Source: Methylophilus sp. TWE2
Lineage (GTDB): Bacteria > Pseudomonadota > Gammaproteobacteria > Burkholderiales > Methylophilaceae
NCBI RefSeq assembly: GCF_001183865.1
Contig: NZ_CP012020.1
Location: 2,289,839 to 2,353,838, forward strand
Length of the DNA: 64,000 nucleotides
Direction of reading: 5' to 3'
The position numbers and the translations under genes are program-made. Of the stretch, positions 15,620 to 43,959 are shown piece after piece. The stretch's first letter is position 1. Each line of letters starts with the position of its first letter. The notes under the pieces were generated by a model. That model ran no database searches. It had not been told where the DNA came from and saw only the letters and a program-made list of their open reading frames with translations.

Positions 15620-15636
15620 GGACTAGTCGGACTAGT
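15620..15636. promoter_or_regulatory. Tandem GGACTAGT motif in the exbB/phoX divergent promoter region
   Basis: GGACTAGTCGGACTAGT: two GGACTAGT units nine bases apart, between the divergent exbB-like and PhoX-like genes. The GGACTA half-site recurs upstream of the other operons of the island. Probable operator of the EpsA-like LuxR-family regulator at 43019-43852 (inference). Its arrangement differs from the 16-bp palindrome at three of the other sites. Confidence 0.55.
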
Positions 15637-15828
15637 TTTTTTATCCGCTTTTTTCGTGATTCAATGACTTCAAAATGAACCTTTGGTGAAACGGGACCAT
15701 AAGCTAATCCATCACGCAAGAAATCTTCATATTCACCGGTATCTTCAAAGATAGAATCTTTTGCATACTGAAATTTCAGCTTATTCAGTAGATAAAAGAA
15801 TTTTTTCAACTTACCAGGAGAATACACA

Positions 15829-18042
15829 ATGAAGGGTATTAAGCATCCTAACAACGATGTTGCACTGAATGACTCTGGCAATACTTCCATCTCAGAAGTG
15901 ATGAACCAGGTGGATGTCAACCGTCGTAAGTTTTTGATGACTGGCATTAGCTCAACAGCCTTGGTTGCCGCTGGCGGTTTGACACTCTCTGGTTTTGCCA
16001 ATGCAGTCACACCAGCTGGTGCAGCTGCGGCCAAAACCGGGTTGCTCGGAAGCGCATCTGCCTCTGCTGGGATGCCTAGCGCCCCCATCTCTTTTACACC
16101 AATCCCACCTAACCTGGCAGCCAGCGCTGTCGATGCCGTCTCTGTGCCACCTGGCTATACCGCAGAATTATTTGTCGCCTGGGGTGACCCCATCGTGCGT
16201 GGCGGTATGCCATTTAGCGGTACAGCCACTGAAACAGCTGCACAGCAGCGTCTGGCTTATGGCGGTCACACGGATGGCATGCATTTCTTCCCCTTTGCCG
16301 AAAGAAATGGCGAGTTGAGCAGTGATCGCGGCTTGCTTGTCTCCAACAGTGAATATACCCACGAAGAAATTTTATTCCCTGACTTCCATGCCAATTACAA
16401 CATTGCTAAGGCTCGCAAATCGCAGGCAGCACATGGCGTGAATGTCCTTGAGGCAAGACGCGTGAGAGGCGCATGGGGCGTGCAACGCAATTCCATCTAT
16501 GGCAGACGAATAGATGCCAATACGAGAATGCGCATCAGTGGCCCAGCTGCGGGTCATGCACTGCTGAAAACGGTGGACTACAAGATTGATGATAACGGCA
16601 GCACTCCTATCGGCATGACAGACGGGACTTACTGCTACGGGACAGTCAACAACTGTGCAAATGGTTATACACCTTGGGGTACCTACCTGACTTGCGAAGA
16701 AAATTTTAATGGTTACTTTGGCCGCGCCGCCGGGACGTTAGATACCACTGCAACAGGTTCAGAGAACAGCAAGCTTTATCGTCGTTATGGCTTAAGCACC
16801 ACTGGGGCAGGCTACAGATGGCATACCGTTGACCCGCGCTGGGAGCTGGATGCTAACCCTAATGGGCCAAATACCTTTGGCTGGATTGTTGAAATTGATC
16901 CATTTAATCCCAAAAGCGTACCTGTAAAACGCACCGCGCTTGGTCGTTTTAAACATGAGAGCGTGCAATATGTGGTAGATACTGCCAACGATCTTGGCAT
17001 GTATATGGGCGATGATGAGCGTAACGACTACATCTACAAATTTGTCGCCAATGCCAAGTTCAATCCAAGCAACCGTGCAGCCAACCGCGACATTCTCGAT
17101 GAAGGCACACTCTATGTGGCGCGTTTTGACGCCAACCTGACGGGTGTTTGGTTGCCATTAACGCCGGACAGTATCGGCGTCAATGGACAGGCCTTGCGCA
17201 ACAACCCGAACTTTGCTGGCGCTAACGATGCTGAAGTTCTGGCCAAAATCCTGATCAAAACCCGCATGGCGGCTGATGCAGTGGGTGCAACCATGATGGA
17301 CCGCCCAGAGTGGGTAGGCGCTCGCCCACGTATAAATGGGTTCCAGGAGGTTGAGCTTTATTGCACATTAACAAACAACAACCGCCGTGGTACATCACCA
17401 GCCAGCGTAAATGCAGCAGACGGATCCACCTCTGCTGGCGGCGCCCGCCCACCAGTGGATGCTGCTAATTCCCGCGAAAATAACATTTATGGTGGTGTGA
17501 TCCGCTGGCGTGAAGATGGTCGCAGCGTGCGCGCAACGACCTTTACATGGGATATGTTTGTGCAAGCAGGTGACACCCTCACTGCGCGCACGCCATTAGC
17601 CACCAATGACTTTAAAGGCAATATTGTAGATACGCCAAATGGCAGTGCAGATTTTGGTGCGCCAGACGGTTTATGGTTTGACGACTTCGGCCGCATGTGG
17701 GTACAAACCGACTCCGGCGCAGGCACGGGAGACTTTGTCAACCTGGGTATGGATCAAATGGTGTGCATAGACCCAAGCACCAAAGAGGCCAAACGCTTCC
17801 TGACCGCTTGCCCACAAGCTGAAGTCACCGGTATCGCGATGACTCCAGATGGGAAAACCCTGTGGGTAGGGATTCAGCATCCAGGTGATGCAGGCACTGA
17901 GGCTGCCCCTGAGCAATACTCTGCATGGCCACAAAGCCAATGGAATTTTGCCAGTGATGGCGTTACCCCGCTGAACCCAGGCCGTCCTCGCTCAGGTGTA
18001 GTGGTGATTACCAAAAATGATGGTGGCATTATCGGCACTTAA
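15829..18042 (+). CDS. phoX: PhoX-like (DUF839) secreted alkaline phosphatase, Tat-exported
   Basis: 737 residues. A Tat signal lies at about 32-58 (NRRKFLMTGISSTALVAAGG), consistent with export of a folded, metal-loaded enzyme. The rest is the DUF839/PhoX beta-propeller, with landmarks LLVSNSEYTHEE, PWGTYLTCEENFNGYFG, GRFKHESVQYV, DDERNDYIYKFV and GLWFDDFGRMWVQTD. PhoX enzymes release phosphate from phosphomonoesters using calcium and iron and are usually phosphate-regulated. The ATG has AGGAG eight to nine bases upstream. It is divergent from the ExbB-like operon and is followed 54 bases later by a PEP-CTERM gene, probably co-transcribed. The whole family may include non-phosphatase members, so activity is inferred. 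Confidence 0.85.
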   Translation: MKGIKHPNNDVALNDSGNTSISEVMNQVDVNRRKFLMTGISSTALVAAGGLTLSGFANAVTPAGAAAAKTGLLGSASASAGMPSAPISFTPIPPNLAASAVDAVSVPPGYTAELFVAWGDPIVRGGMPFSGTATETAAQQRLAYGGHTDGMHFFPFAERNGELSSDRGLLVSNSEYTHEEILFPDFHANYNIAKARKSQAAHGVNVLEARRVRGAWGVQRNSIYGRRIDANTRMRISGPAAGHALLKTVDYKIDDNGSTPIGMTDGTYCYGTVNNCANGYTPWGTYLTCEENFNGYFGRAAGTLDTTATGSENSKLYRRYGLSTTGAGYRWHTVDPRWELDANPNGPNTFGWIVEIDPFNPKSVPVKRTALGRFKHESVQYVVDTANDLGMYMGDDERNDYIYKFVANAKFNPSNRAANRDILDEGTLYVARFDANLTGVWLPLTPDSIGVNGQALRNNPNFAGANDAEVLAKILIKTRMAADAVGATMMDRPEWVGARPRINGFQEVELYCTLTNNNRRGTSPASVNAADGSTSAGGARPPVDAANSRENNIYGGVIRWREDGRSVRATTFTWDMFVQAGDTLTARTPLATNDFKGNIVDTPNGSADFGAPDGLWFDDFGRMWVQTDSGAGTGDFVNLGMDQMVCIDPSTKEAKRFLTACPQAEVTGIAMTPDGKTLWVGIQHPGDAGTEAAPEQYSAWPQSQWNFASDGVTPLNPGRPRSGVVVITKNDGGIIGT

Positions 18043-18098
18043 TATCACCGGGCAGCGTGATTGCGCTGCCCCCCCTTTTATATTGACAGGAGCTTATG

Positions 18099-18755
18099 AT
18101 GAAATTTACAACCCTTAGCATCGTCGCTTTAATGGCAGCTTCCTCGGCAGCCAATGCAGCCTCATTTTCTTCACCGTCCGCCACGTTTACGGGTGATGTG
18201 ATTGACTTTAATGCCTTTGATGGCTATCTGTTGCCTCAAGGTGGTAGCAACAGCCTGAGTTTAGACTATGGTGTGACATTAACCACCGATGGCCTCGCGA
18301 CCGTTGGTCAAAATGCATTCGACCTGAATGATAACGGACTGTGGAGTGTCGTGGGCAATGCAAACCGCGATGGCACATTTTTATCTGCTGAATTTAACAA
18401 TGCTAATGACAGCATCCATTTTAGCTTTGCCTCTGGCATGCAAAAGGTCGGCATCTTTATCAACCAATATCAAGACATCGGTGAAAGTAACAGCCTGAAT
18501 TTTTTTGCATATGACATTAACGGCAACGTGCTTGAAACACGCACCATCAACGTTGATACCGCTTGGGACAGCTATGATGAAGGTATGTTTGTCGGTTTTG
18601 AGCGTGCGTCCGCAGATGTTTACCGCTTTGGAGTCTCAGGCGGTACCTTTGTCATGGACAACCTGACCATCTCCGCAGTCCCTGAACCGGAAACAGTTGC
18701 AATGTTGCTGGCCGGATTGGGATTACTGTCTTTCGCCGCCCGTCGTCGCGCTTGA
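18099..18755 (+). CDS. PEP-CTERM sorting-domain protein
   Basis: 219 residues or so. Signal peptide (ending AANAAS), a beta-rich secreted domain of about 165 residues with VIDFNAFDGYLLPQGG and VGIFINQYQDIGESN, and a C-terminal exosortase signal: VPEPE, hydrophobic helix MLLAGLGLLSFA and a basic tail ARRRA. Such proteins are processed by an exosortase and exported to the cell surface. The ATG at 18099 is preferred over 18096 for spacing from AGGAG. It follows the PhoX gene and ends before a strong terminator, so both share an operon. Confidence 0.88.
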   Translation: MKFTTLSIVALMAASSAANAASFSSPSATFTGDVIDFNAFDGYLLPQGGSNSLSLDYGVTLTTDGLATVGQNAFDLNDNGLWSVVGNANRDGTFLSAEFNNANDSIHFSFASGMQKVGIFINQYQDIGESNSLNFFAYDINGNVLETRTINVDTAWDSYDEGMFVGFERASADVYRFGVSGGTFVMDNLTISAVPEPETVAMLLAGLGLLSFAARRRA

Positions 18756-18772
18756 CAGACCGCTGTTAATCG

Positions 18773-18801
18773 AAAAGAGCCGCCTCCTGCGGCTCTTTTT
18801 T
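18773..18801 (+). terminator. Rho-independent terminator of the PhoX operon
   Basis: Eleven-base perfect stem AAAAGAGCCGC / GCGGCTCTTTT with a CTCCT loop followed by TT, 18 bases after the PEP-CTERM stop codon. Confidence 0.9.
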
Positions 18802-19484
18802 ATCATCCGAATTACTTATCTGGCGCTGCTATCAATTTAAATTGCTCATCCACAAAAGAGGCGAAAAAAATTTGCGAGCATACAGTAAGCATATTGCCTG
18901 CTTAGCCACCATAGGAGCAACGCCATATAGTGACAGAAGTTGTTCTGATGGAAGTGCTATATCACTTGATCAATTGTCATCATTCAAGGTTTTCCTAAAA
19001 CAATACCTGCGAAACGCAACGTCGCTGCCCCCCCGCCTAATCAACGTATACAGCCTCACAAAAAACAAATGGAGTGACCGTTGACGCTGCCACATGGGGC
19101 AAATACCGGGGGCTAATCTGCTTAAACAAGGCCCTCAGGCAACCGTATCAACGCATCACTCACACGACAGACTATCTGGTAGACGATTTGGGTTGAATTT
19201 GAACACATCAATTCGGAACTGGTCGGCAGTCAGCACGCATGGCTTCCACGTTGCATGTATTTTGCACTTCAGGCGATGTTATCTCTACCACAGACTTTCC
19301 ATTAGGAATGGAAATGACAACGCTGAACTGCTTGATGGATTTTTCGGGTAAATTTGAGGGTAATCATCGATTTTTGTTTAACCAACGATGCAAAATGGAC
19401 AAAGTTCACTTTCGAGTAGATTGAAAATCACCTCATGCAAAATCTGGGATTACTTAACCGTTTTTAAGCAGCCATTCGTCATGC
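18802..19484. other. Gene-poor interval, nothing recognised
   Basis: About 680 bases between two convergent terminators. Three short overlapping plus-strand open frames (18842-19084, 19094-19351, 19239-19424) have no recognisable product, no good ribosome site and unconvincing composition. No inverted ends or target duplications of an insertion sequence were seen. It could be a decayed gene or insertion remnant. Confidence 0.4.
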
Positions 19485-19510
19485 GAAAAAAAGCCCGGCG
19501 AACCGGGCTG
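19485..19510 (-). terminator. Rho-independent terminator of the nuclease/nucleotidase operon
   Basis: Minus-strand stem AGCCCGG / CCGGGCT with TTCG tetraloop followed by seven T, downstream of the PEP-CTERM gene ending at 19546. Confidence 0.92.
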
Positions 19511-19545
19511 GTGCGTTCATTGCAAACGCGTTGATGCAGAGAGAA

Positions 19546-20058
19546 TCAGGATTGGCGGCGGGCAGCAATCCAGCCCATCAAGCCCAGACCAATCAGCATC
19601 AGGCCGGATTGTGTCGGCTCTGGTACCGCAGCGGCATAGGCCAGACTACCAGTACCGGACAAGCCCAGAGATGTGTCATAGGCCAAGAAAGCATCGGAGG
19701 CATCGGCGCTTCCTGCAATAAAGCTAAACCCGATCGCCGGGCTGTTGGAATCTACAGACCACTCCAGGCCAGTAAACACGCCATCCTGGAATACGGCCGT
19801 GGCATCGGCCAGAGCAGGCGTTGCCAGGTTGAACAGGTTGCCACCAAAAGTGAAGTTCAGGCTGCTCAGGTTGATCAATTCAGTGCCTGATGCCAGCAGG
19901 CCGGCATCATCAAAGCTGAACTGGCCCTGATAACTTGACCCGTTGTAGTAACCGGATTCAACTTGACCATTAAACTGCCAGGATTGAATCGCTGCCTGGG
20001 CTGGGATGACGACTGTCAACAAGGCAGCCAACGTGATTTTTTTCATGAATGTGTTCAT
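19546..20058 (-). CDS. PEP-CTERM sorting-domain protein
   Basis: 170 residues. Signal peptide ending PAQAAI, a beta-rich domain (IQSWQFNGQVESGYYNG, then LINLSSLNFTFGG), and a C-terminal PEP-CTERM segment: AVPEPT, helix LMLIGLGLMGWIA, tail ARRQS. Last gene of the minus-strand operon ExeM-like nuclease, PEP-CTERM, nucleotidase, PEP-CTERM. An AAGGAA ribosome site precedes the ATG. Role unknown; surface protein. Confidence 0.87.
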   Translation of the reverse strand: MNTFMKKITLAALLTVVIPAQAAIQSWQFNGQVESGYYNGSSYQGQFSFDDAGLLASGTELINLSSLNFTFGGNLFNLATPALADATAVFQDGVFTGLEWSVDSNSPAIGFSFIAGSADASDAFLAYDTSLGLSGTGSLAYAAAVPEPTQSGLMLIGLGLMGWIAARRQS

Positions 20059-20080
20059 TGCAAAATTCCTTTAGTAAACA

Positions 20081-22372
20081 TTAAAGTATGAAGTCTCTGG
20101 CTGGCGACACTTGTTTGGCGGTCAAGCCTTTCAAGGTCACTAATGGTTTAGCTACGGCAGGACCTGTCGCACCATCGGTATCGACCATCAGCTGTACACC
20201 ACCAGTCACGTCCATCAAGCGCAGGTAGCCACCTGTGAGCGCACTATTGGCAGACACGCCCAGCGAAGTCAGCAAGGCCGTCAGCTGTAATTTGTCGGCA
20301 TAAGGCGTAAAGTCAGTAATGGTGTCGCCCGCTTCACGCATGCTGTTATAAACAAATACATCGTTACCTGCGCCACCGGTCAGCGTATCCACACCCAGGC
20401 CACCGTTGATCATGTCATCCCCGGCTGTGCCCACCAGTGCATCACGGCCAGCGCTGCCTGTTCGCGTGACACCAGCGGTTGAATTAGCAATCGCCAGGTC
20501 AATCAAACGGCCACCTTTGTCATACTGGTTTTCCAGGCCATACATATTCACAGTAATTTCATCACCATCACTATTATTCAAGCGACCCAGGCCACCCTCT
20601 GATTTTGGCGTTTGAATGAAGTTAGCCAGGGCTTCCTGATAGGTAATCGTGAACGGGCTGTTTTCAAACTCCACAGCATTGGCCGCAAACGGATAACCGT
20701 CGCCACCCGCTGCCGTGAAGTCTATGGTGGTGAATGAGAAAGTACGGTTATTGACCACCACACCGTTATCAATCAGCACGGTGCCGTCATCCAGCACTAC
20801 ACGCTGAATGCGGCTACCAGTCCCTTGCGTGGTTCTGGCAGGGTTACGGCTGTCATACACCACTTGCATGCCAGAGATTTGTGGGTAGCGGCCATTGGCA
20901 CGACCAGTTGGGCTGGTATCGCCATAGCCATGCTCAAGCAAATCTTTAAGCTGAGTCGCATTCATGGCAGGCGCACGCTTGACCAGGTTGGTAAATGGCA
21001 GGATATTGAAAGTATCGCCAACAGAAACATTGCCGGCAGCCGCAATATTGGTACGGATACCGCCGCCATTCTGGATCGCAACATCGGTTTTACCGGCAAA
21101 ACGCATGGCATCAGCGACCAGATTACCCAAGCCGGTTTCAGCGTTACGCACACCAGCGACAAATGTGCATGGCAGTGCAGCGCAGGTCGTATGGGTGGGG
21201 CCGTTCAACTTCACCGCAGTGGTGCCTATGATTTGCGCATTCAAGGCAGAAATATAGTTGAGGATTGGCGTCACTACTTGCGCCTGGATAGTGGCATCGC
21301 CACTCACGCGGTCTGCATCTGCGGCGGCACCCGAAACGCGCATCATTTTGCTGGAGTCAATCCCGACAAAGGTGCCATTGCTATCATCAATCGTGAAGTT
21401 GAGCTCCCCAACGTAACGGTTACCAAAGTGGCTGGTCAGCACAGGCACGGTATGGCCATTGGCATCTATTGCATTCACTGGATGTGAGTTGTAGGTCGCA
21501 GCCACGCCTCCGTTGATCAGCGCATCGTCAGGATCGACCATTAACTCATGACCTCCGCCGGACAATACCAGATCAACACCGGTCAAGGCAGGAATCACCA
21601 CATTGATCTCATTGGCGGCATTTTGCAGATGGCTGATCAGGATGACGGTTGTCACGCCTTGCTCGTTACGCAGGCGATTCACTTCCGCCTGAATCAGCGG
21701 AATTAGCGCCTGCAGGTTTTGTGCCTCGGTATTGTTGGCATCAAAGCCAATCAAATTGACTGCCCCTGGAGAGGAAATACTAGGCAACAATGGTGTCGTT
21801 GCACCTATCAGGCCAATCTTGTGGCCCGCACTGGTCGTAATGATTTTTGATGGAGCCACTTTGCCTGCAGCCTTGAGACTGGCAAAGGGGTTTGTGGCAT
21901 CAAAATTAAGGTTCACAGACAGGTAGGTGCTACCTGACACTTCAGCGAAACGGGCAGCCACATCGGCACCAAGGTCAAACTCATGATTACCAAACACAAT
22001 CGCATCAAAACCAATCTGACGCAAAGCGATGGTGTCATAGAAGTCCTGACCACCCATGTAAGCGCTGCCCAGATTTTGAAAACTGGCATTGAAACGAGGA
22101 CCTGGTAAAAAGGCATCGCCCGCATTCAGCTTGAGCACATGACGGCCGGCAGCTTGCGCGGCTGTTTCAGCATTCTTCATCACGGTTGCCAGGCGGTCCA
22201 CGCCACCATAAAAAGAAATGGCCTGACCACTGCTATCACGCAAGTTACCTTGCGCAGACAGCAACCAGCTTTCTTGGTCACCCACATGTAATACAGTCAC
22301 ACCCTCCGCCCAAGCCACACTGGCAGTCAAGGTCAGTGCGACATAAGCAGTTAATTGTTTCAGTTTAAACAT
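20081..22372 (-). CDS. Secreted 5'-nucleotidase / metallophosphatase with C-terminal RTX-type export module
   Basis: 763 residues. Sec signal peptide ending AWAEG, then the metallophosphatase domain (about 25-330) with VLHVGDQES, NAGDAFLPG, FGNHEFDLGAD, SHLQNAA and GGGHE, and the 5'-nucleotidase C-terminal domain (about 370-570) with NGGGIRTNIAAAG and FNILPFTNLV. From about 640 there is a single RTX-like block (TAGDDMINGGLG, LTGGAGNDVFVY) and a type-I-secretion target-like end, near-homologous to the end of the nuclease at 23235. The first metal motif is GDQE rather than the NDxH of UshA, a known variant in this superfamily. The ATG at 22372 has GGAG six bases upstream; the longer frame starts with GTG at 22384. 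Releases phosphate from nucleotides in the second step of DNA scavenging. Confidence 0.88.
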   Translation of the reverse strand: MFKLKQLTAYVALTLTASVAWAEGVTVLHVGDQESWLLSAQGNLRDSSGQAISFYGGVDRLATVMKNAETAAQAAGRHVLKLNAGDAFLPGPRFNASFQNLGSAYMGGQDFYDTIALRQIGFDAIVFGNHEFDLGADVAARFAEVSGSTYLSVNLNFDATNPFASLKAAGKVAPSKIITTSAGHKIGLIGATTPLLPSISSPGAVNLIGFDANNTEAQNLQALIPLIQAEVNRLRNEQGVTTVILISHLQNAANEINVVIPALTGVDLVLSGGGHELMVDPDDALINGGVAATYNSHPVNAIDANGHTVPVLTSHFGNRYVGELNFTIDDSNGTFVGIDSSKMMRVSGAAADADRVSGDATIQAQVVTPILNYISALNAQIIGTTAVKLNGPTHTTCAALPCTFVAGVRNAETGLGNLVADAMRFAGKTDVAIQNGGGIRTNIAAAGNVSVGDTFNILPFTNLVKRAPAMNATQLKDLLEHGYGDTSPTGRANGRYPQISGMQVVYDSRNPARTTQGTGSRIQRVVLDDGTVLIDNGVVVNNRTFSFTTIDFTAAGGDGYPFAANAVEFENSPFTITYQEALANFIQTPKSEGGLGRLNNSDGDEITVNMYGLENQYDKGGRLIDLAIANSTAGVTRTGSAGRDALVGTAGDDMINGGLGVDTLTGGAGNDVFVYNSMREAGDTITDFTPYADKLQLTALLTSLGVSANSALTGGYLRLMDVTGGVQLMVDTDGATGPAVAKPLVTLKGLTAKQVSPARDFIL

Positions 22373-22419
22373 TGCATTCTCCACACAGTGCCGTGACGCA
22401 TCACGGCACTCATTGATAA

Positions 22420-23178
22420 TTAACGTGATTGACGGCGACGTACCAGGGCCAATACGCCAAAACCAGCCAGCAACATGGCAGCGCTATCTGCTTCGGGCAC
22501 GGCACTGACACTAAAAGCAGCGGTATTTGGAATTAATGCAGCGGAAGTACTGTTATTCAGGGTGTCCACGCTCCAGTTATTCACATTCGCCACTTGTGCT
22601 TTGTAATCAGAAAAGTTGCTGAGGCCGTCACGCACACCGTTGTACTCGGCGTAGTCTGGTTCACTGGAAGCACCAGCTTTGGCAGTCAATTCGATCGCAT
22701 TCACGCCTTTGGTCAGACCTGTGTTGGTTAGCGAGCCATCATTGGCAAATTTGCCATTGGTGATGGCTGTCAGGAAGGTGGTTGGTGCTGAGGCAGCAGT
22801 GCCTAAGTATGCATAGACCGTTTCTTTATCGTTACCAATGCCCCAGTTGCTGCTACCGCTCACTGTCACGCGTGACAACACCCCGGTAGATGCAGACAGG
22901 CTGGTTTTGTCATAAGCAGAAAAGCGTACGACGGTACCCGCGGCGACCAAGTCGCTGGACACCCACTGGTTGTAACTTTCACCGGTATTGAATGCACTAC
23001 CAGTCCATTCGTTATCGCTGAAGTAAATTTTGGTATTTGCAGCAATATCAACAAACGTCACGAAGGACAAACCATCTTCGTCAGCGTTGAAGGCAGTGAA
23101 CATAATGTCACCGGCATTCAGTGCCGCGTTAGCTTGGCTGGACAGCAACAAGGCTGCGATTAAACTGATTTTTTTCAT
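22420..23178 (-). CDS. PEP-CTERM protein (PEAD variant)
   Basis: 252 residues. Signal peptide ending ANAALN, a single beta-rich domain with DEDGLSFVTFVDIAANTKIYFSD and NEWTGSAFN, and a C-terminal sorting segment AVPEAD, MLLAGFGVLALV, RRRQSR. The N-terminal pattern also occurs in secreted proteins linked to lamin-tail/nuclease genes. It lies between the nuclease (56-base gap) and the nucleotidase, so it probably acts with them at the cell surface. Confidence 0.86.
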   Translation of the reverse strand: MKKISLIAALLLSSQANAALNAGDIMFTAFNADEDGLSFVTFVDIAANTKIYFSDNEWTGSAFNTGESYNQWVSSDLVAAGTVVRFSAYDKTSLSASTGVLSRVTVSGSSNWGIGNDKETVYAYLGTAASAPTTFLTAITNGKFANDGSLTNTGLTKGVNAIELTAKAGASSEPDYAEYNGVRDGLSNFSDYKAQVANVNNWSVDTLNNSTSAALIPNTAAFSVSAVPEADSAAMLLAGFGVLALVRRRQSR

Positions 23179-23234
23179 CTTAAATATCCTCTCACTCGGT
23201 TTTTAAAAACAACTCACTGATTTGTTATGGTTGA

Positions 23235-26200
23235 TTACCAGCGCACATCTCGTTGTGCGTCCAGTTGATTCATGGCTAATCCTTTTAAGGTCACCAATGC
23301 TTTGGCTGTTGCAGCCCCGGCGATGCCGTCGGTGTCGATTTGCAGTTGCGTACCGCCAGCCACACTGACCCAGCGCGCCACGCCATCAGCAAATGGCTGA
23401 CCTCCTGTATATCCAATGCTTTGCAGCAAGGCACCGATGTCCAGCTGGTCTTCACCCGGCGTAAAGTCAGTGATAGTGTCTGTGGCATCACGCATGCTCT
23501 GGTAAACAAAGGTGTCGCGACCAGCCAGCCCAGTGAGGGTGTCTGCCCCCAGACTACCCGTCAGCACGTCGTCACCTGCAGTGCCGATCAAGGTGTCGCG
23601 CTGGGCACTGCCGTTGACCGTTTTTACCAATTGCACGCCGACAATGACCGGGTCATGGTCAGAAGAACGGTAAGGGCTATCGGTGTAGAGGTCTTGTGGT
23701 TTGAACTCGGTGTTGTAATCAATCACAAACGGTTCATCGGCGTTGATGTGCCAGTGCGTGGTGCCGGTCAGTTGCGCGGCCATACTGCTGCTGGCCAGGG
23801 CATGGTCCAGGTAACCGGATTCACCATCAAACACGTAGGAGTAGTCACTCTCGCCATTAAAGCGGGCAATCTGGTCTTGCAAACCACCAGCTTCCAGAGA
23901 CAGGATAGGATCTTCCTTGCCGTAAGCATTGAGGTCACCAATGACCATCACATCGCTATCACCAGACTGCGCTTGCACCGTATTGATAAATTGCAACAAG
24001 CGGCTGGCCTGGGCGAGTCGTTGCGAGTTATAGCAACCCTGGCCATCACCTTGGTCCTGGTTAGCACCAGCGACATCCGAGCAGCTCTTGGATTTAAAAT
24101 GGTTGACCAGTACGGAGAACTTCTCACCATTGGCTGCACGGAAGGTTTGTGCCAGCGTTGGACGGTTGTTGATACTGTCGTTATCGGACAAGGCCGCGGC
24201 GGTTGGCGTCAATTTTGCCGGTTTGTAGATCATGGCCACTTTAATCGCATCAGTACCAGTCCCCGTCACCGGGTCAGCGATCACGGCATAGGTGTTGGCG
24301 CCCAATACCGCATTCAAACCATCGACCAGATTTTGTGCCGCAGTGAGTCCGTTGTTCTGGATTTCCATCAAACCCACCACATCGGCATTCATCGCAGTCA
24401 ATGCGCGGATAATCTTGTCACGCTGACGATTGAACTCTGTCAGGTTATTGGCACCCCGGCAGTTGGAGGCAGATACACTGTTACCCAAACGGCAGCCTTG
24501 ACCGGTCTGGCCACTGGCAGTGGCGCCATTGGTAAAGGTCGTGAAGTAGTTGAGTACGTTAAAGCTAGCGATTTTAAGGTTACCTGCCACGCTGGCGGGT
24601 GACGCTGTCCGCACATTGACGCGGCTAAACTGTACTGGCTCGGTCGGGTGCAGCTTGTAGTCACGCGGACCTGTACCTGAGGCTGTAATCAAGCCATGGT
24701 CGATCACCCCGGTCAGGTTTTCCACCACATCGCCGGCACGCAAGGTATTGTCTTCGCCAATAAACGGAATCGGGTTGGGGTTTTGTGCACTGCTACCGTC
24801 ATCCAGCACCAGGCGACGGCGCGCATTTTCATCGGCCAGTTGTGCCGCAGCGGTCGAGTTGGCAGGATAAATATTGCTAGGCTTGATCATGCGACCTTCG
24901 GCAGACAAGGTCACCTGACCATAACGTCCCTGGAAGTAATTCTGCGAAGCGGTCATCGGTGTGGTGATACGCACCAGCATGCCTTCATAAGCTTCCAGAT
25001 CACCTTCTGTCACTTCTGGCAAGGTAATGTCTGTTGGCAGAATGTTGCCACTGCCAATCACCTGCAAGCCGCTCACGTTGACCAGCTCGGTAATGGTATT
25101 GAACTCTGTCACATTGGCTGTCAGGCGAATTTTTTGCCCTTTGCTCACCGTAGGGTTCACGCCTGAGCCTAGATAGACAAATACACCATCCGAAGTCTGT
25201 GGATTGCCATCACCGGTGGCATCTTGCAGGTAAAAGCCATTCAGGCCAGGGAACACAGCAGTGACCACACCCTCTGTCGTGACAGTTTGGCCATTGAGCG
25301 GGCTTACAGAGGCTGTGCCCAATTCGCTGCCCTGAATCTCGTAAATGCGGGTGATATTGCTGTTTTTAATCGTGATATTGACGGTACAAGTTGCCGTCTG
25401 CGCTTCATCATTGGCAAACTGGATATCGGCCGTGTATTGCCCTGCTGGCAGGCTGCCATCCAATTGAAACGTCGCGCTGGCAGACTGACCATCACTGCTG
25501 GCCGCGGCAAAATTGGCCAGACTCACGCCGCTCGGCGCATTAGAAGCCAAGGTCGCGGCATTCACCACACTGTCAACATCTGACGCCTGCACCTGACCGG
25601 CACCAACCTCGCCCACTTGCAGCGTTATCGCCGGACAAGAAGTAACAATCGGTTGATTTCCTGTCCCACCTCCCGTATTGCCGCCACCGCAGACATTCAC
25701 TGCGCTGCTGCTATTGCGTGGTGCGGGTGCACCGGTCACAAAGTCGCTGCCGTTCTGGTTAGTATCCTGACAGCCATTATTCTTACGTAGCAATGCCGTG
25801 CTGCTTGAACTCGCCGGTGCTGCCGAGCCTTCGGCAAAGTTGGCCGTGCCATAACCTACCAAATCGGCAATCTGCGCCAACTGACTGCTGCTACACACAT
25901 TAGAGCCACCGTTACAAGTCAGACCGATGCTGCTCTTGACCAACACCACCTTGCCGTTGGTCCCGCTCATGTCAGTGCCATTATTGCTGGTATCCGGCGT
26001 AGGCAAAGCTGAACCGTTGGCCGCGCTACGCAAACCCACCAGGTAATATTGGCCAGGTTGCAACAAGCCAGACAATGTTGTCACGCCATTGGCAGAAAAA
26101 TTACCGTTCCCCGTGGCGCTGGCATACTGCACAGACCAGCCATTGATATCTACTGCCACGCTACCGTTGTTGAACAACTCAACGTAATCCTGGTTATAAA

Positions 26201-26312
26201 TATTGCCCTGGCCGCCATAGATCTGGCTAATTACCACCTCGGCATAGACAGGGATACTTAAGGAGGACAGACCCAACCAGGCCAGTGCCCAATGCATTTT
26301 TTTAAATTTCAT
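23235..26312 (-). CDS. exeM: ExeM/NucH-type extracellular endonuclease with lamin-tail domain and RTX-type C-terminus
   Basis: 1,025 residues. Signal peptide ending VYAEVV; N-terminal lamin-tail domain (about 25-170: VVISQIYGGQGN, DYVELFNNGS, DINGWSVQY); a beta domain; an OB-like nuclease-associated region (about 325-560: GQTVTTEGVVTAVFPGLNGFY); an endonuclease/exonuclease/phosphatase domain (about 575-905) with SFNVLNYF, VVGLMEIQN, VIGDLNAYG and SSDHDPVIVG; and a C-terminal RTX block (TAGDDVLTGSLGAD). ExeM-type nucleases degrade extracellular DNA. First gene of a four-gene operon with a nucleotidase. It has both a Sec signal and a type-I-secretion-like end, unusual together. An operator-like palindrome lies about 90 bases upstream. 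Confidence 0.9.
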   Translation of the reverse strand: MKFKKMHWALAWLGLSSLSIPVYAEVVISQIYGGQGNIYNQDYVELFNNGSVAVDINGWSVQYASATGNGNFSANGVTTLSGLLQPGQYYLVGLRSAANGSALPTPDTSNNGTDMSGTNGKVVLVKSSIGLTCNGGSNVCSSSQLAQIADLVGYGTANFAEGSAAPASSSSTALLRKNNGCQDTNQNGSDFVTGAPAPRNSSSAVNVCGGGNTGGGTGNQPIVTSCPAITLQVGEVGAGQVQASDVDSVVNAATLASNAPSGVSLANFAAASSDGQSASATFQLDGSLPAGQYTADIQFANDEAQTATCTVNITIKNSNITRIYEIQGSELGTASVSPLNGQTVTTEGVVTAVFPGLNGFYLQDATGDGNPQTSDGVFVYLGSGVNPTVSKGQKIRLTANVTEFNTITELVNVSGLQVIGSGNILPTDITLPEVTEGDLEAYEGMLVRITTPMTASQNYFQGRYGQVTLSAEGRMIKPSNIYPANSTAAAQLADENARRRLVLDDGSSAQNPNPIPFIGEDNTLRAGDVVENLTGVIDHGLITASGTGPRDYKLHPTEPVQFSRVNVRTASPASVAGNLKIASFNVLNYFTTFTNGATASGQTGQGCRLGNSVSASNCRGANNLTEFNRQRDKIIRALTAMNADVVGLMEIQNNGLTAAQNLVDGLNAVLGANTYAVIADPVTGTGTDAIKVAMIYKPAKLTPTAAALSDNDSINNRPTLAQTFRAANGEKFSVLVNHFKSKSCSDVAGANQDQGDGQGCYNSQRLAQASRLLQFINTVQAQSGDSDVMVIGDLNAYGKEDPILSLEAGGLQDQIARFNGESDYSYVFDGESGYLDHALASSSMAAQLTGTTHWHINADEPFVIDYNTEFKPQDLYTDSPYRSSDHDPVIVGVQLVKTVNGSAQRDTLIGTAGDDVLTGSLGADTLTGLAGRDTFVYQSMRDATDTITDFTPGEDQLDIGALLQSIGYTGGQPFADGVARWVSVAGGTQLQIDTDGIAGAATAKALVTLKGLAMNQLDAQRDVRW

Positions 26313-26401: not shown

Positions 26402-26417
26402 TAGTCAGGTTGGACTA
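26402..26417. promoter_or_regulatory. 16-bp operator-like palindrome upstream of the exeM operon
   Basis: TAGTCA-GGTT-GGACTA fits the TAGTCC-N4-GGACTA pattern with one mismatch in the left arm. It is 90 bases upstream of the nuclease start. Confidence 0.6.
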
Positions 26418-36787: not shown

Positions 36788-36841
36788 CACATCACCTCGT
36801 ATACTTCAGAAACTTACTGCCTGACCGGTGTCAACCTTGTA

Positions 36842-38593: not shown

Positions 38594-38626
38594 TTTGAAA
38601 GCACTGCGTGTCACAAAGATGAAATA

Positions 38627-38638
38627 CGGACTAGTCCG
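38627..38638. promoter_or_regulatory. CGGACTAGTCCG palindrome upstream of the two-partner secretion operon
   Basis: A perfect 12-bp palindrome with overlapping GGACTA half-sites, just upstream of the transporter gene. Shares the half-site of the other island promoters, but in a more compact arrangement. Confidence 0.6.
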
Positions 38639-38791
38639 CTGCCTGTTTTAAGTAGCCCTAGTGGGCCATTGCAGCTAACAGGTGAGCACGCCTCCCAAAT
38701 TCGAGGAGTTCGAGCAAAAGATCATTAAAAAGAGTACTGACTGAGGTTCAACAACAAACTTCTGGAATCAACAAGCTGTGTACAAACGAGC

Positions 38792-38817: not shown

Positions 38818-38862
38818 AAAGAGAGACGAATATAGCTTTTGGCTATACACTCTTCGATTTGC

Positions 38863-40272
38863 TTAGAACTTCCAAGTTAATGGCCGGCAGCTGTTAGCTT
38901 GGCGCGTTGTTTGGGTAATGTGCACGCCTTTGTTTAATATCGGACAAGCGCTTGAGGCAGAATTCAAAATCAAACCACGTGGCACAGAGGTACAAGACAC
39001 TAAAGAAAGACTGCCGACGATGTTTTTGATCACCGTCTCGCCAAATGTGCCTTTTGCTTCATGGCTGATAAAGCCTTTGAGTGGAAACTGGAAAGGATAC
39101 TGACCTTGCGCAGAAGTGTAACGGGCGAAGCTGTCAATGGTGTTGTAAGGCCCTGCTTCTGGATGCACACCATCCACTTTCAGGTAGCGTCTGCCAGCAG
39201 CAGGTGTACTTTCCAATGAAACGACACCAATTGCAAACTCACCTGCAGACGATGCATTGCTTATTCTAGTGCGCACTACAGAGGTTTCACCATCTTCAAA
39301 GATTTGATAATAATCAGGATCGCTATCCGCCTCTTTAGTGGGAAACAATGAGCCACCAATAGATGGGTTTTGCAAACATGGGTTACCTAAAAAAAATGTA
39401 TTTGACGCAGTTTGCGTGCCTGATGTGTTCACGCGACGAGCGATAATCACCACCTTAGTTTCATCAACCCCTAATGGTGCCCATGTTGCCAATGGGTCAG
39501 ACACCAAAGAAGCATATTGTTGCTTGTTGATGGAAGGTGCATTTTGTGGCAAGAAACCAGGATCAGCCGCGTTAGCAGCCGCAACAGAAGCATAAATGCC
39601 TTGCGCCACTTGCATGGCACGATATAACGGCTCCGTGGCCATGACACCAAACACTTGTGTGACACCGGCGTCAATCTCGGTACCATAAGAAGTTGCATTT
39701 ACACCAAACAATGCCGCTTCAACATCTGAAAAACCACCCGCTGGTTTTTTGGGAGTGTTATCAGTTGCTGCAAAACCGTTGATCGTTGTTGCACATCTGT
39801 AAACTGGCGTTGCACCCTGACTTGTAACGGTGATAGTACCCACGTTAGTGCAACTATTTGTAGCCACGTTAGCCAAACGGTTTAGGTTAGTTGTTACGCC
39901 AAAGCCTGTACCAGCGACATCGTTAGGTACGTGCGGGGCAAAAGCATTAAATGAACCGCCCTGGTTAGTGTGGTATAACACAGAAACGACACCACCACGC
40001 ACGCACGCATATGCAAATGTATTGCCAGTACGCCAATCACCTGGGAAAGATGCCTCTGCAGTTCCACCATGGAATACTGACAATGTGTTAGTTTGACAAC
40101 CAGATACAAAACTTAAAAAAACACCCCTTGTTGTCGAGGATGAGCCACTGATCCAAGCCTGATTCAACGGTTGTGCATTCTGTATGTCTGTTTGAGTCAC
40201 TGCTGCCGCAAATGCACCGGTCGCATACAATACCGCTGCCATTAGAATGACGAAATTATAAATCCTTTTCAT
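38863..40272 (-). CDS. PstS-like secreted substrate-binding-fold protein, copy 1
   Basis: 469 residues with a Sec signal peptide (ending AFAAAVT). It is a paralogue of the next upstream gene (40462-41880): both share AWISG near the N-terminus, RGGVVSVLYHT, GGFSDVEA, RVNTSGTQ, PSIGG and VPRGL. The 'RVNTSGTQ.SN.FFL' segment resembles the phosphate-contacting 'RSDGSGTT' loop of PstS, so a periplasmic or secreted phosphate-binding-type fold is likely, but this is by motif shape only. Six or more cysteines may form disulfides. It has its own control region with one GGACTA half-site about 104 bases upstream. No ABC transporter for it is present in the window. Confidence 0.72.
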   Translation of the reverse strand: MKRIYNFVILMAAVLYATGAFAAAVTQTDIQNAQPLNQAWISGSSSTTRGVFLSFVSGCQTNTLSVFHGGTAEASFPGDWRTGNTFAYACVRGGVVSVLYHTNQGGSFNAFAPHVPNDVAGTGFGVTTNLNRLANVATNSCTNVGTITVTSQGATPVYRCATTINGFAATDNTPKKPAGGFSDVEAALFGVNATSYGTEIDAGVTQVFGVMATEPLYRAMQVAQGIYASVAAANAADPGFLPQNAPSINKQQYASLVSDPLATWAPLGVDETKVVIIARRVNTSGTQTASNTFFLGNPCLQNPSIGGSLFPTKEADSDPDYYQIFEDGETSVVRTRISNASSAGEFAIGVVSLESTPAAGRRYLKVDGVHPEAGPYNTIDSFARYTSAQGQYPFQFPLKGFISHEAKGTFGETVIKNIVGSLSLVSCTSVPRGLILNSASSACPILNKGVHITQTTRQANSCRPLTWKF

Positions 40273-40375
40273 ACCCCATCTCCCTTATTGACAACTTAAT
40301 TTATAGTCAACTGTAAATTCACATTACTAACACTTTCTTATATTAAGAGCCCAATTTGTCGTAAAGATGACAGGT

Positions 40376-40381
40376 GGACTA
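40376..40381. promoter_or_regulatory. GGACTA half-site upstream of the first PstS-like gene
   Basis: A single GGACTA about 104 bases upstream of the 40272 start, overlapping in part a region with ATGACAG (40367-40373), which is the reverse of a CTGTCAT Pho half-site. Confidence 0.45.
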
Positions 40382-40387
40382 ACTGAA

Positions 40388-40419
40388 ATGAAAAAAGCAC
40401 ACCCGGTAGGGTGTGCTTT
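40388..40419 (-). terminator. Rho-independent terminator of the PEP-CTERM/PstS-like operon
   Basis: Eleven-base perfect stem AAAGCACACCC / GGGTGTGCTTT with a four-base loop, ending on the minus strand in six T, 42 bases after the 40462 stop. Confidence 0.93.
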
Positions 40420-40461
40420 CAATCAGCTAACTACAATTTTTGATCGTAGTGATTTATTTAA

Positions 40462-41880
40462 TTAGAACAACATCTGGTTAGCTTGACAGTTGTTACCACC
40501 ACGTGTCATCTTAGCCACTTCTTCACCCGCAACACATGCAGAACCTGCCTCAGGATTCAAAGTCAAGCCGCGTGGCACGTCAGCACAAGATAAGGTACTA
40601 AATGCACCGACAATTTCACCAATCACAGTCTCACCAAAAGTACCTGCTGCAGAGTTAGCCACGAAAGAAACCATCTCCATGTGGAAACCATAATCACCAT
40701 TTACAGCTTTGTTACGTGCCTTGACATCTTTAGTTGCACCGGAACCAGCAACGGGTGTTTCAGGATGAACACCATCAAGCTTGATGAAACGATAGCCGTT
40801 TCTGTCTGTTCTTGTCTCGGCGTCCCAATCATTTTCAAGAGACATCACACCAATAACATAGTTTGTTGGGTGAGTGAACTTGGTTTTCAGGGAGGATGTG
40901 GAAGAGTCTTCAGTCACGATGTAAGTAGAAACACCCAAACCAGCTGCTGAAGCTGCGGTTTGTGGAATTAGAGCACCACCAATGGAAGGATCACCATTAC
41001 ATGGGTTTTTCAGGAAAAAGGCATTTGATGAGGCTTGTGTGCCTGAAGTGTTAACACGTCGACCAATACGCACAGGGGTGGTGGTATTGTTTGGGATCAA
41101 TTTGCTCCAGTTTGTGTATGAGCCTGTGATAAGTGCTGTGTATTGCGCACTGCTAATGTTAGGGGCATAGGCTGGGTCAAAGGTTGGATCCAGAGCATCG
41201 GTATTTCTTGAAATGCCTTGGGCAGTTTGCAATGCACGATACAGAGATTTTGAAACTGCAACACCAAACACTTGGCCCACGTAAGCTGGACTTTGTGTAC
41301 CAAACTCACTCACATCTTTACCAAACAGCTGTGCTTCAACATCGGAAAAACCACCAGCTGGCAGTGCTGGGGCGTTATCATTTAGCGCTGCAGCAGTACC
41401 TGAAGCACAAGTGCGATATACCGCCGTAGCAGACTGGTTATCGTTCACATTGATTGTAGCACCAGAATTGACGCAGCCATTGCCTGCTGTTGAATCCAGG
41501 CTTTTAACGCGAGTCAAACTGACACCATCAACATGAGGCGCAAAAGCATTGTATGAACCGCCTGCAATCGTATGATACAACACAGACACCACACCACCAC
41601 GTGTACAAGCGTAAGCTAAGTTATCGCCTGCAGAACCTGGTCTCACAGCACCTGCTGTAGTCGTGTCATGGAAGAATGACAAAGTATCTGCATCACAACC
41701 TGCAGCAAAACCCTGAAATACATTATATGTTGGAGCAGATGCGCCAGAAATCCAAGCTTCTTGCAAATTGCCAGTTCCACGTGCAGCAGTAATATCTGCC
41801 GGGGTCACTGGTGCAGCCAACACTTGACCTGCGATCAAAGTGCCAGCCACTGCCAGCAACAGTTTATTTAATTTAAACAT
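40462..41880 (-). CDS. PstS-like secreted substrate-binding-fold protein, copy 2
   Basis: 472 residues; Sec signal ending VLAAPVT. Shares the same landmark motifs and length as copy 1: EAWISGASAPTYNVFQGF, YACTRGGVVSVLYHTI, GGFSDVEAQLFG, GRRVNTSGTQASSNAFFL, AGTFGETVI and DVPRGLTLN, so the two are a tandem duplication. The fold looks like PstS/PBP2 proteins. It lies 75 bases after the PEP-CTERM gene in the same orientation and ends at a strong terminator, so the pair is one transcript. It may bind a phosphorus compound outside the inner membrane; the family is not firmly assigned. Confidence 0.74.
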   Translation of the reverse strand: MFKLNKLLLAVAGTLIAGQVLAAPVTPADITAARGTGNLQEAWISGASAPTYNVFQGFAAGCDADTLSFFHDTTTAGAVRPGSAGDNLAYACTRGGVVSVLYHTIAGGSYNAFAPHVDGVSLTRVKSLDSTAGNGCVNSGATINVNDNQSATAVYRTCASGTAAALNDNAPALPAGGFSDVEAQLFGKDVSEFGTQSPAYVGQVFGVAVSKSLYRALQTAQGISRNTDALDPTFDPAYAPNISSAQYTALITGSYTNWSKLIPNNTTTPVRIGRRVNTSGTQASSNAFFLKNPCNGDPSIGGALIPQTAASAAGLGVSTYIVTEDSSTSSLKTKFTHPTNYVIGVMSLENDWDAETRTDRNGYRFIKLDGVHPETPVAGSGATKDVKARNKAVNGDYGFHMEMVSFVANSAAGTFGETVIGEIVGAFSTLSCADVPRGLTLNPEAGSACVAGEEVAKMTRGGNNCQANQMLF

Positions 41881-41955
41881 TTTTCGTTTCCTTCAGTAAA
41901 AGTTTGATTGGCGGCCAGTTTTTGACTGACCGTTATTCATGGCTTGCCTTATTAA

Positions 41956-42753
41956 TTAAGCTTTGCGACGACGGGCAACCAGACCAATGACGCCCAAACC
42001 TGCCAACAACATGGCGTAGCTGTCTGCTTCAGGGACTGGAGCTGCAAAGGTCAATACACCGGCACTATTGAGGCTAAATGTGTAGTTTCCATTAGTATTA
42101 CCCAGAGTAGTTTCTGTTAACGCAGTAGTGTTAGTTGCGCCATTCACCAGTTGACGGATGGTCATCGTGCCGCCCAAAACAGTCGTCGTGTCGAAACCTT
42201 GCTGATTAATACGACCTGAGGTACCGTATGCTTTTGCGTTTTCTGCGAAAGCAGCGCCTGAAATTGCTGAACTTGCACCATTTGCAACTGACGCGTGATT
42301 ACCCAAGTTCTGGTTTGCTGCCAGATACTCGTCAAAGGCAGACAGTGTATTATTGAATTGTGAGCCAACCATTTTTGTACCTTTTTCATAGGTTGCAATC
42401 AGGTTTCTACTACCAGCACCACCGCCAAAATTGTCAGCAGACATTACACCCCATTGTAATGAAGCGCTGTTACTTGCAGTACCCCAGAATGTGTTCCAGG
42501 CATCAGCATAGTCACCTTTAGACAAATCCCAGCTTAATGCACCACCGCTTGAGGCTGCTTGCGCAACCATTGTGCTAAATTCACTGTTGCTGTATCCCAG
42601 ATCAAAAAGAGCAGAAATGTTATTAGTGTTGTCGACAACAGTCAGAAAAAAGCTGGAGTCGCCACTACCGCTAAGTGTAAATGCCGCCTGTGCTGGAACA
42701 GTTGCTGCAGACAACGCCAACGCTGCTACCAATGCTTTATATTGAAATTTCAT
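41956..42753 (-). CDS. PEP-CTERM protein (PEAD variant)
   Basis: 265 residues. Signal peptide ending PAQAAFT, a beta-rich domain (LSGSGDSSFFLTVVDNTNN, DLGYSNSEF, SWDLSKGDYADAW), and a C-terminal sorting segment VPEADSYAMLLAGLGVIG with a basic tail ARRRKA. It starts a transcript with the PstS-like gene downstream. The ATG has AGGAG upstream. Two full TAGTCC-N4-GGACTA palindromes lie about 116 and 210 bases upstream, making it the best candidate target of the EpsA-like regulator. Confidence 0.88.
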   Translation of the reverse strand: MKFQYKALVAALALSAATVPAQAAFTLSGSGDSSFFLTVVDNTNNISALFDLGYSNSEFSTMVAQAASSGGALSWDLSKGDYADAWNTFWGTASNSASLQWGVMSADNFGGGAGSRNLIATYEKGTKMVGSQFNNTLSAFDEYLAANQNLGNHASVANGASSAISGAAFAENAKAYGTSGRINQQGFDTTTVLGGTMTIRQLVNGATNTTALTETTLGNTNGNYTFSLNSAGVLTFAAPVPEADSYAMLLAGLGVIGLVARRRKA

Positions 42754-42868
42754 AAACCTCTCCTAAAAATTATTTAAAACTACTGAAAGAGCAAACCATC
42801 GAGATGGCGATTTAAAACACAACACACGAATATTGTCAGGCCAGCATGTCATACATGTGATTTGCAGT

Positions 42869-42884
42869 TAGTCCACATGGACTA
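42869..42884. promoter_or_regulatory. 16-bp operator palindrome TAGTCCACATGGACTA
   Basis: Seven-base arms TAGTCCA / TGGACTA around a CA centre; fits TAGTCC-N4-GGACTA exactly. About 116 bases upstream of the PEP-CTERM start at 42753. Confidence 0.7.
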
Positions 42885-42963
42885 GCTGAAAAACACCGCA
42901 CTTGCCAGTCGATCAAACCTGAAAGAGTTTAAGGAGGAGAGATGACATTCTTTAAAACATGCC

Positions 42964-42979
42964 TAGTCCTATCGGACTA
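42964..42979. promoter_or_regulatory. 16-bp operator palindrome TAGTCCTATCGGACTA
   Basis: Exact TAGTCC-N4-GGACTA. Centre lies 95 bases from that of the neighbouring palindrome (nine helical turns), between the regulator's stop codon and the PEP-CTERM gene, so both are suited to cooperative binding. Confidence 0.7.
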
Positions 42980-43018
42980 TGTCTGCATGAAATTCTTGTG
43001 AATTTCATGCTTGAAGAT

Positions 43019-43852
43019 TTACTGGCTTCTATGAATCAGGCCTAGTTTCAAGGCCTTGCTAGCAGCTTGGCTACGGTTTTCTACATCGAGTTTACGCAAG
43101 ATGTTTTGTACGTGGTTTTTAATCGTCAATGGGCTGACCTGCATGATGCCGCCAATCTCCCAATTGGTTTTACCGGCTTGCAACCATTCAAGGACTTCGA
43201 GCTCTCGTTTGCTTAAGGGTTTGATACGGCCATTACGCGATGGGGTAGAGAGGACAGAAGGACTTTTATTTGCAGTCACTTTGACGATGGCACAGTGCAG
43301 ATGTGGCATCAACAACTCCAACAGATGGGCCGTTTGAGCATTTGCAGGTGAATTCAAGCGGCCGAACATGACCATAGTTGCAATACGGCTATGCTCGTTG
43401 CCAAAGCCATGTACCACAAAGCGCTTGAGCTCTGAAGCCAGCATGCGATCTGCCTCTACATGCTCTACGGCATAATGATTGTATTGTTGTGATTGCGGGT
43501 CCGTATGGTAGAAGACCGGCATACCCAGCTGGCTCCAGCGCGTGAAGGCTTCATGAACAAGGCCATCTTCTTCATTCAGTACCTGGTCAAACTGAGTATC
43601 ACCAAAGTAGCGGCTTGAGGTCAGATATTCATAATCGTAGCTGGCACGCTCCAAACCACGCACGCCGATGACGACAACCTCGTGAGCAAGCAAACACTGA
43701 AACCCGCGTTGTAACCAGTTAAAGAAGTGAGAGCGATGCTGCAAGCGAAGCGACTCTTCAATCACTTCCATAAATACTGTGCGCTGCTCTTCATTCAGCG
43801 CCAGCGCCCACTGGTCGCTGACCTGATCTATCCCTGTCATTGTGGTATCCAT
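43019..43852 (-). CDS. epsA: EpsA-like LuxR-family transcriptional regulator
   Basis: About 277 residues. A non-receiver N-terminal domain (DQWALALNEEQRTVFMEVIEES, then a globular part), and a C-terminal LuxR-type helix-turn-helix beginning PLSKRELEVLEWLQ with SPLTIKNHVQNILRKLDVENRSQA. The lack of a phospho-acceptor domain and the DNA-binding consensus resemble EpsA, the exopolysaccharide regulator of Methylobacillus. A longer frame reaches 43972, but its first 40 codons look non-coding; the ATG at 43852 is favoured. It lies between a PEP-CTERM operon and a transglycosylase, surrounded by GGACTA sites; probably the regulator of the island. A Pho-box candidate lies about 180 bases upstream. 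Confidence 0.78.
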   Translation of the reverse strand: MDTTMTGIDQVSDQWALALNEEQRTVFMEVIEESLRLQHRSHFFNWLQRGFQCLLAHEVVVIGVRGLERASYDYEYLTSSRYFGDTQFDQVLNEEDGLVHEAFTRWSQLGMPVFYHTDPQSQQYNHYAVEHVEADRMLASELKRFVVHGFGNEHSRIATMVMFGRLNSPANAQTAHLLELLMPHLHCAIVKVTANKSPSVLSTPSRNGRIKPLSKRELEVLEWLQAGKTNWEIGGIMQVSPLTIKNHVQNILRKLDVENRSQAASKALKLGLIHRSQ

Positions 43853-43953
43853 GTGTACGACACATTTATCATTTAATGTGCAGCAAGTTTGCGCATGATT
43901 TGTGACAGAAAAATGATTGCGGCATGTCAGTTCGTTGATGAATTCATGACATC

Positions 43954-43959
43954 GGACTA
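43954..43959. promoter_or_regulatory. GGACTA half-site upstream of the EpsA-like gene
   Basis: Single GGACTA about 105 bases upstream of the favoured start at 43852; it lies inside the longer open frame to 43972. Could be autoregulation. Lower confidence because only one half-site is present. Confidence 0.4.

Follow-up and report, generated by a model that had tools for sequence, protein, structure and literature searches.

The control of PEP-CTERM promoters is described, in the parts of the literature that our searches reached, for a single scheme, that of sigma54 and PrsR. As far as the accessible text goes, motif 1 of the PrsK/PrsR box is a 17-nucleotide element that ends in TTTACA and lies on average 63 nucleotides before the -24/-12 motif (PMC1569441), and RpoN-dependent expression of PEP-CTERM genes has been reported (PMC9850573). 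Here we describe a different element, the palindrome TAGTCC-N4-GGACTA, which lies beside epsA, a gene for a LuxR-type regulator, in a 64,000-nucleotide stretch of the Methylophilus sp. TWE2 genome (the window; G000:C1:2289839-2353838, G000 being this genome of 3,079,044 bp). This palindrome is very probably a genuine cis-regulatory element, with a link to epsA that extends over several genera, and in the fuller form TAGTCC-RWWY-GGACTA it is likely, at a probability of roughly 0.77, to be the operator through which the EpsA family (TIGR03020) activates PEP-CTERM promoters in Methylophilaceae.

The lux, tra and las boxes are dyads of about 16-20 bp that are read by a LuxR-type helix-turn-helix (HTH) and sit near -42, where they replace the -35 element. 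The EpsA site is like them a dyad, of 16 bp, with a LuxR-type candidate reader, and the original prediction was right that its size suits a LuxR-type dimer; the half-site TAGTCC differs from the half-sites of these boxes. Unlike the readers of the lux, tra and las boxes, EpsA has no Pfam autoinducer-binding match, though its structural model resembles CviR, QscR and the CepR2 domain. CsgD/VpsT-type biofilm regulators, which target matrix genes, also share the LuxR-type HTH with EpsA, but differ in that the EpsA model, compared over its full length, best matches LuxR proteins of the autoinducer type. Like the PrsR box, as far as the latter is set out in the accessible text, the EpsA site is a shared cis element that precedes scattered PEP-CTERM genes and tracks one regulator family (Haft et al., 2006; PMC1569441); unlike it, it is a 16-bp dyad that is followed, at about 23 or 32 bp, by a -10-like hexamer. 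No account of an EpsA operator was found in the literature searched, subscription literature lying mostly outside the search, in line with the original prediction of an undescribed operator. We file the element as new, of the LuxR-type dyad kind, and as a second scheme of PEP-CTERM control beside PrsR.

The palindrome beside epsA

The features on which the argument turns are the following.

42964..42979, minus strand: exact putative operator TAGTCCGATAGGACTA, distal copy; lies 40 bp beyond the stop codon of epsA, with 211 bp to the start of the PEP-CTERM gene
42869..42884, minus strand: exact putative operator TAGTCCATGTGGACTA, proximal copy; lies 135 bp beyond the stop codon of epsA, with 116 bp to the start of the PEP-CTERM gene
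41956..42753, minus strand: PEP-CTERM protein gene, predicted target (PF07589, 33 bits; C-terminal PEP-CTERM signal)
43019..43852, minus strand: epsA, LuxR-type regulator of 277 amino acids (TIGR03020, 209 bits for the longer open reading frame (ORF) 43019-43972; cut-off 170)

The exact palindrome (no mismatch) occurs twice in the whole genome, both times in the 265-bp gap between epsA and the PEP-CTERM gene, the two copies starting 95 bp apart; paired exact sites in the genus are mostly spaced by 90-96 bp, with 78, 79 and 108 bp also found. Both copies lie 3' of the epsA stop and not upstream of the gene. Autoregulation of epsA is not supported, because the half-site upstream of it, at 43954, is kept in 1/10 relatives. 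The EpsA of the window shares 97% identity with its counterpart in Methylophilus methylotrophus DSM 46235. We have taken the later start at 43852 because 8 of the 18 close matches in the genus have an in-frame stop within the matched stretch and their open frames encode 278-320 amino acids.

The association was followed through loci selected by similarity of the EpsA protein alone, with the motif disregarded. In each of the 16 such loci a site with 0-1 mismatch lies 3' of epsA at a distance of up to about 1.03 kb, and in 14 of them within 170 bp. When exact 6-bp inverted repeats with spacers of 0-10 were collected from the 400 bp past 17 epsA genes, TAGTCC-N4 appeared in 14/17 and the next-best repeat, shifted readings of the same dyad aside, in 4/17. 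Control loci around response-regulator genes of Methylophilaceae (125 kb, 125 genes) held no site with 0-1 mismatch.

Of 150 genomes sampled from Methylophilaceae, the exact word is present in 45. EpsA is matched by TIGR03020 at E ≤ 1e-20 in 73, 70 of these exceeding the curated cut-off of 170 bits. EpsA is present in 43/45 word-bearing genomes as against 30/105 others (p = 3e-15; all co-occurrence p-values given here ignore the kinship of the genomes), whereas with the backward word as control the figures are 27/51 and 46/99 (p = 0.49). With the genus of the window removed the link persists (25/27 versus 26/101, p = 2e-10), and within that genus, where 18/22 genomes have an EpsA close to that of the window, exact sites occur in 16/18 of these and in 2/4 others. 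Beyond the family, in a set of 386 genomes from the same order, EpsA is found in 18/36 word-bearing genomes and 57/350 others (p = 1e-5). Sites near epsA occur there in several families (for example G309, G356, G229 and G362); in G309 about 210 bp separate the site from the EpsA match, and a PEP-CTERM gene lies on the other side of the site.

Adjoining genes and promoter geometry

The family genomes hold 112 exact sites in total; the fetched loci give 81 distinct and 75 non-redundant ones, some of the 112 lying outside the set fetched. Only 2/75 fall inside ORFs of more than 150 amino acids, contrary to what would be seen if the word were equally common within genes. A gene starts 20-320 bp on from 66/75 sites, and for 45/75 that gene is of the PEP-CTERM type, against a PEP-CTERM share of 22/263 among the other genes of the same loci and 0/125 among control-locus genes. 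In the genome of the window, a site with 0-1 mismatch precedes only 2/25 of the PEP-CTERM genes whose upstream regions were read. Other adjoining genes include those for EpsD, GGDEF-EAL proteins, a CAAX-protease-related PEP-CTERM protein, a glycosyltransferase and a TolC-type protein.

A -10-like hexamer stands at preferred distances from the dyad. For this analysis a 91-site list, containing some opposite-strand duplicates, was reduced to 81 sites with a gene start at 20-320 bp and then, after removal of similar flanks, to 63. Oriented towards the gene, these show two peaks, at offsets 23 and 32 (14 sites each), where other gene-side offsets reach at most 7 and mostly 0-3, the upstream side at most 5 at any offset, and 500 shuffles at most 9 at any one offset. 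A hexamer at 22-24 or 32-34 is present in 43/63 on the gene side versus 8/63 on the other, and for PEP-CTERM targets in 34/41 versus 4/41. The distal copy in the window conforms, with TAAACT 32 bp downstream and TGTCAT ahead of it; TGTCAT, ten bases before the -10, is conserved in the 32 class, whose members are mostly from the own genus. Where the offset is 23, the position that a -35 element usually takes falls at the edge of the dyad. With the start set 7 bases past the -10 of these predicted promoters, the dyad would be centred near -43.5 or -52.5, a placement that appears to be what a LuxR-type activator would need. The four central bases read RWWY in 41/75 sites, as against 1 in 16 expected at equal base use.

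These observations suggest a mechanism in which an EpsA dimer would bind the 16-bp dyad, with its centre some 43 or 52 bp ahead of the transcription start, substitute for a good -35 element and bring sigma70 RNA polymerase to promoters of genes for PEP-CTERM surface proteins, and to those of some genes for exopolysaccharide and cyclic-di-GMP. In the window, the paired sites between epsA and the PEP-CTERM gene 41956-42753 would drive that gene.

Five sites with 0-1 mismatch occur in the genome of the window, and two of them are outside the island of secreted-protein genes, which runs against the idea of a self-contained regulon. The one at 798567 has TATAAT at offset 23 and is followed, 211 bp on, by a short ORF and then a GGDEF-EAL gene; its 16 letters, which alone were compared, are present in G075, G087 and G099. 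The one at 1583447 precedes a PEP-CTERM gene. A two-mismatch word at 1239110, near a second epsA, was rejected as a site, being inside a 721-amino-acid ORF. The genome holds 24 PEP-CTERM matches over the cut-off, and TAGTCC or GGACTA occurs nine times upstream of 26 PEP-CTERM genes, which ties the highest of 180 permutations (mean 3.0), 7/9 reading TAGTCC on the gene strand; this excess is a hint only of degenerate sites, because 4/9 come from the two exact sites. At G000:C1:1658790-1661097 five PEP-CTERM matches lie close together on one strand, none with a 0-3-mismatch operator upstream.

Genome G026 has a single EpsA match at E ≤ 1e-20, of the type II described below, and 17 exact sites, six of them on the epsA contig, where they precede epsD and a GGDEF-EAL gene among others. 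At L135 (G026:C190), positions 11911-12356 hold four identical TAGTCCGTTCGGACTA sites in steps of 158, 135 and 137 bp between PEP-CTERM and GGDEF-EAL genes, and at L042, L132 and L136 of the same genome exact operators are paired 33 bp apart before three different PEP-CTERM genes.

The contexts of sites outside the family rest on ORF calling that is poor for such genomes. There, genomes with EpsA hold 39 exact sites, 21 of which were fetched: 2/21 are inside ORFs of more than 150 amino acids, three precede genes passing the PEP-CTERM test and three more precede genes with sorting-signal-like ends by eye. Genomes without EpsA hold 21 exact sites, of which 19 were fetched together with one from G289, a genome that has EpsA; of these 20, eight are inside ORFs of more than 150 amino acids and one is before a PEP-CTERM gene.

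EpsA as the candidate reader

Adjacency and co-occurrence strongly suggest that EpsA is the protein that binds the dyad. The family matches GerE in 15/15 members examined, and Pfam's autoinducer-binding domain is absent from the families that these 15 members match at E ≤ 1. In structure comparisons over the full length, the EpsA model comes closest to the autoinducer-type LuxR proteins CviR and QscR, and it has a template-modelling (TM) score of 0.65, by target length, to the CepR2 domain; its predicted local distance difference test (pLDDT) value is 76.9, the other four models lying at 38-57. On this model the N-terminal domain appears, with moderate confidence, to be of the autoinducer type, and it may sense a signal. 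Over the HTH, both EpsA proteins of the genome also match CsgD, below its cut-off.

EpsA proteins can be sorted into types by their HTH. For type I, to which the protein of the window belongs (SPLT-KNHVQNILRKL), the sites lie mostly past the stop codon. For type II (HTH FTVKNHLQRIFKKL), a one-mismatch site such as TAGGCCGTTCGGACTA lies 148-436 bp upstream in 9/20 type II-like loci examined in the family (L069-L071, L077, L080, L082, L088, L089 and L091), three of the nine being from one genus, and in 0/5 outside it. The genome also has a second EpsA, of 259 amino acids, at G000:C1:1240495-1241214 (L149:13463-14242; TIGR03020, 206 bits), so the EpsA-like protein of the island is no longer the single candidate. 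The recognition helix of this paralogue is altered (SANTVKNHLKRIF), an alkaline phosphatase-like gene lies in the same fetched stretch, and no palindrome with 0-1 mismatch was found in that stretch.

Several observations weigh against EpsA as activator at this dyad. With a second EpsA in the genome, either paralogue may be the one that binds. The p-values are too small because the genomes are related and not independent; 30 EpsA-bearing genomes of the family and 57/75 of those outside it are without an exact site; and no 0-1-mismatch site lies within about 1.5 kb in any of the 27 fetched EpsA loci of genomes outside the family. Conversely, genome G005 (L129, L130; 99% complete) has three exact sites, all beside PEP-CTERM genes, with a best EpsA-model match of 51 bits. 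The low count before PEP-CTERM genes of the own genome, given above, belongs here too (25 of 26 upstream regions were read, one of them of 96 bp only). The -10 spacing is weak for targets other than PEP-CTERM genes (9/22 versus 4/22), it was not seen among the 21 fetched sites from EpsA genomes outside the family, and offset 32 prevails in the own genus while 23 does so elsewhere, the 32 class being mostly of the own genus.

Foremost among the alternatives, and unlikely in our view, is that EpsA represses PEP-CTERM genes through the site. LuxR-type repressors such as QscR exist, and the compact site before the two-partner secretion (TPS) gene described below lies near the start codon. The dyad is, however, upstream of the predicted -10, near -43.5 or -52.5, a position usual for activators, and not over the -10 or the start.

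Equally improbable, or slightly more so, is that the site is read by some other regulator travelling with PEP-CTERM genes, EpsA being merely a frequent neighbour. The sites of G005 and the many EpsA genomes without exact sites would suit such a regulator, whereas the sites adjoin epsA in loci chosen regardless of the motif, and in the other site-bearing family genome without an EpsA hit, G101, an EpsA N-terminal piece is cut by the contig end. PrsR was rejected as that reader: it exceeds its cut-off in 2/150 family genomes (the best match in the genome of the window is 414 bits against a cut-off of 503), and its box, which ends in TTTACA, differs from the dyad. The 12-bp flanks of 89 sites show no TTTACA-type consensus, a comparison confined to the flanks, with no sigma54 promoter scan made.

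It is very improbable that the palindromes are an RNA hairpin, a terminator or a dispersed repeat. An inverted repeat 29-65 bp past the epsA stop, as found in 14/16 loci, would fit a terminator, but the 12-bp flanks lack a fixed sequence such as a T-run, the centre keeps RWWY and a -10-like hexamer stands at the preferred spacings. That the motif is a chance pattern picked by eye, as the near-chance numbers of the bare 6-mer and the three-mismatch palindrome in the window might suggest, is refuted for the exact palindrome by its conservation beside epsA, its EpsA link across genera and the null backward control, and stands for the half-sites at 40376 and 43954.

Variant sites and the meaning of the proposed EpsA box

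The original prediction, whose site coordinates are all correct, also placed GGACTA before nearly every promoter of the island and counted further forms of the word as the same operator. These and the neighbouring genes are listed here.

26402..26417, minus strand: degenerate operator TAGTCCAACCTGACTA (gene strand), one mismatch, 90 bp before exeM
23235..26312, minus strand: ExeM/NucH-family extracellular nuclease with RTX C-terminus, possible target (NF033681, 634 bits)
38627..38638, no strand: compact variant palindrome CGGACTAGTCCG, a short way upstream of the gene for the TPS transporter
38653..38668, no strand: degenerate palindrome TAGCCC-N4-GGGCCA beside the compact site, weak (3 mismatches), partly conserved in the 7 relatives aligned
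15620..15634, no strand: tandem GGACTAGTCGGACTA, a 9-bp repeat, before an exbB-like operon
40376..40381, plus strand: single half-site, covered by 0/13 alignment rows, probably chance
43954..43959, plus strand: single half-site upstream of epsA, kept in 1/10 relatives, probably chance
15829-18042: PhoX gene (profile match)
20081-22384: 5'-nucleotidase gene, RTX (profile match)
36842-38614: ShlB-type TPS transporter gene (profile match)
26588-36790: large TPS partner of the ShlB-type transporter (profile match)

The bare hexamer GGACTA occurs 22 times in the window as against 14.3 expected, a number reached by 4/100 shuffles, and the palindrome at up to 3 mismatches is at chance level (14 matches, 13.3 expected). 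The hexamer thus does not bear out a mark at nearly every promoter. With a frequency so near chance, the reading of every GGACTA word as a site was rejected, as were the half-sites at 40376 and 43954, the latter reading GGATTA in 8 of the 10 relatives. The compact CGGACTAGTCCG and, in the tandem site, GGACTAGTCGG each occur at one place in the genome, and GGACTAGTCNG at three, namely the compact site, the tandem site of the island and 497494.

The sites at exeM, the TPS transporter and exbB hold up as conserved sequences but not as copies of the exact operator. Counted as distinct Methylophilus genomes whose alignment spans the site, the GGACTA half of the exeM site, the one far from the gene, is kept in 9/9 relatives, the full one-mismatch form in 1/9, the other half having drifted to TAGG[CT]A in eight; GGACTAGTCC at the TPS transporter is kept in 8/9 (the closest relative, G075, gave no alignment), and the exbB tandem likewise in 8/9. 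The half-site spacings of all three differ from that of the exact palindrome, as does the geometry of the compact, tandem and single half-sites in general, and the -10 rule does not extend to the three variants (the exeM site has TAATAT at 18, the exbB tandem TAGACT at 20 or 29). EpsA, its paralogue or a different protein may bind them.

The stretch 12330-26312 of the window groups genes for PhoX, the RTX 5'-nucleotidase and the RTX ExeM nuclease with PEP-CTERM genes and ExbB/ExbD/TonB-like genes, and looks like an island for phosphate uptake from extracellular DNA. Two genes at 38863-40272 and 40462-41880, alike in size (469 and 472 amino acids), have no NCBIfam or Pfam match at E ≤ 0.001 and are probably those that had been called PstS-like.

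EpsA is annotated in many genomes, and a defined operator allows a direct assay of its binding. The odds are about even that at least two unrelated schemes control the PEP-CTERM genes of Burkholderiales, sigma54 with PrsR and sigma70 with EpsA, and that the EpsA box, as a dyad in class II position or about one turn further upstream, ties surface-protein, exopolysaccharide and cyclic-di-GMP genes to an orphan receptor of the LuxR type that has the autoinducer-domain fold. With the operator defined, the EpsA regulon would become readable from sequence, and this opens a way towards whatever signal the receptor-like domain of EpsA may sense.

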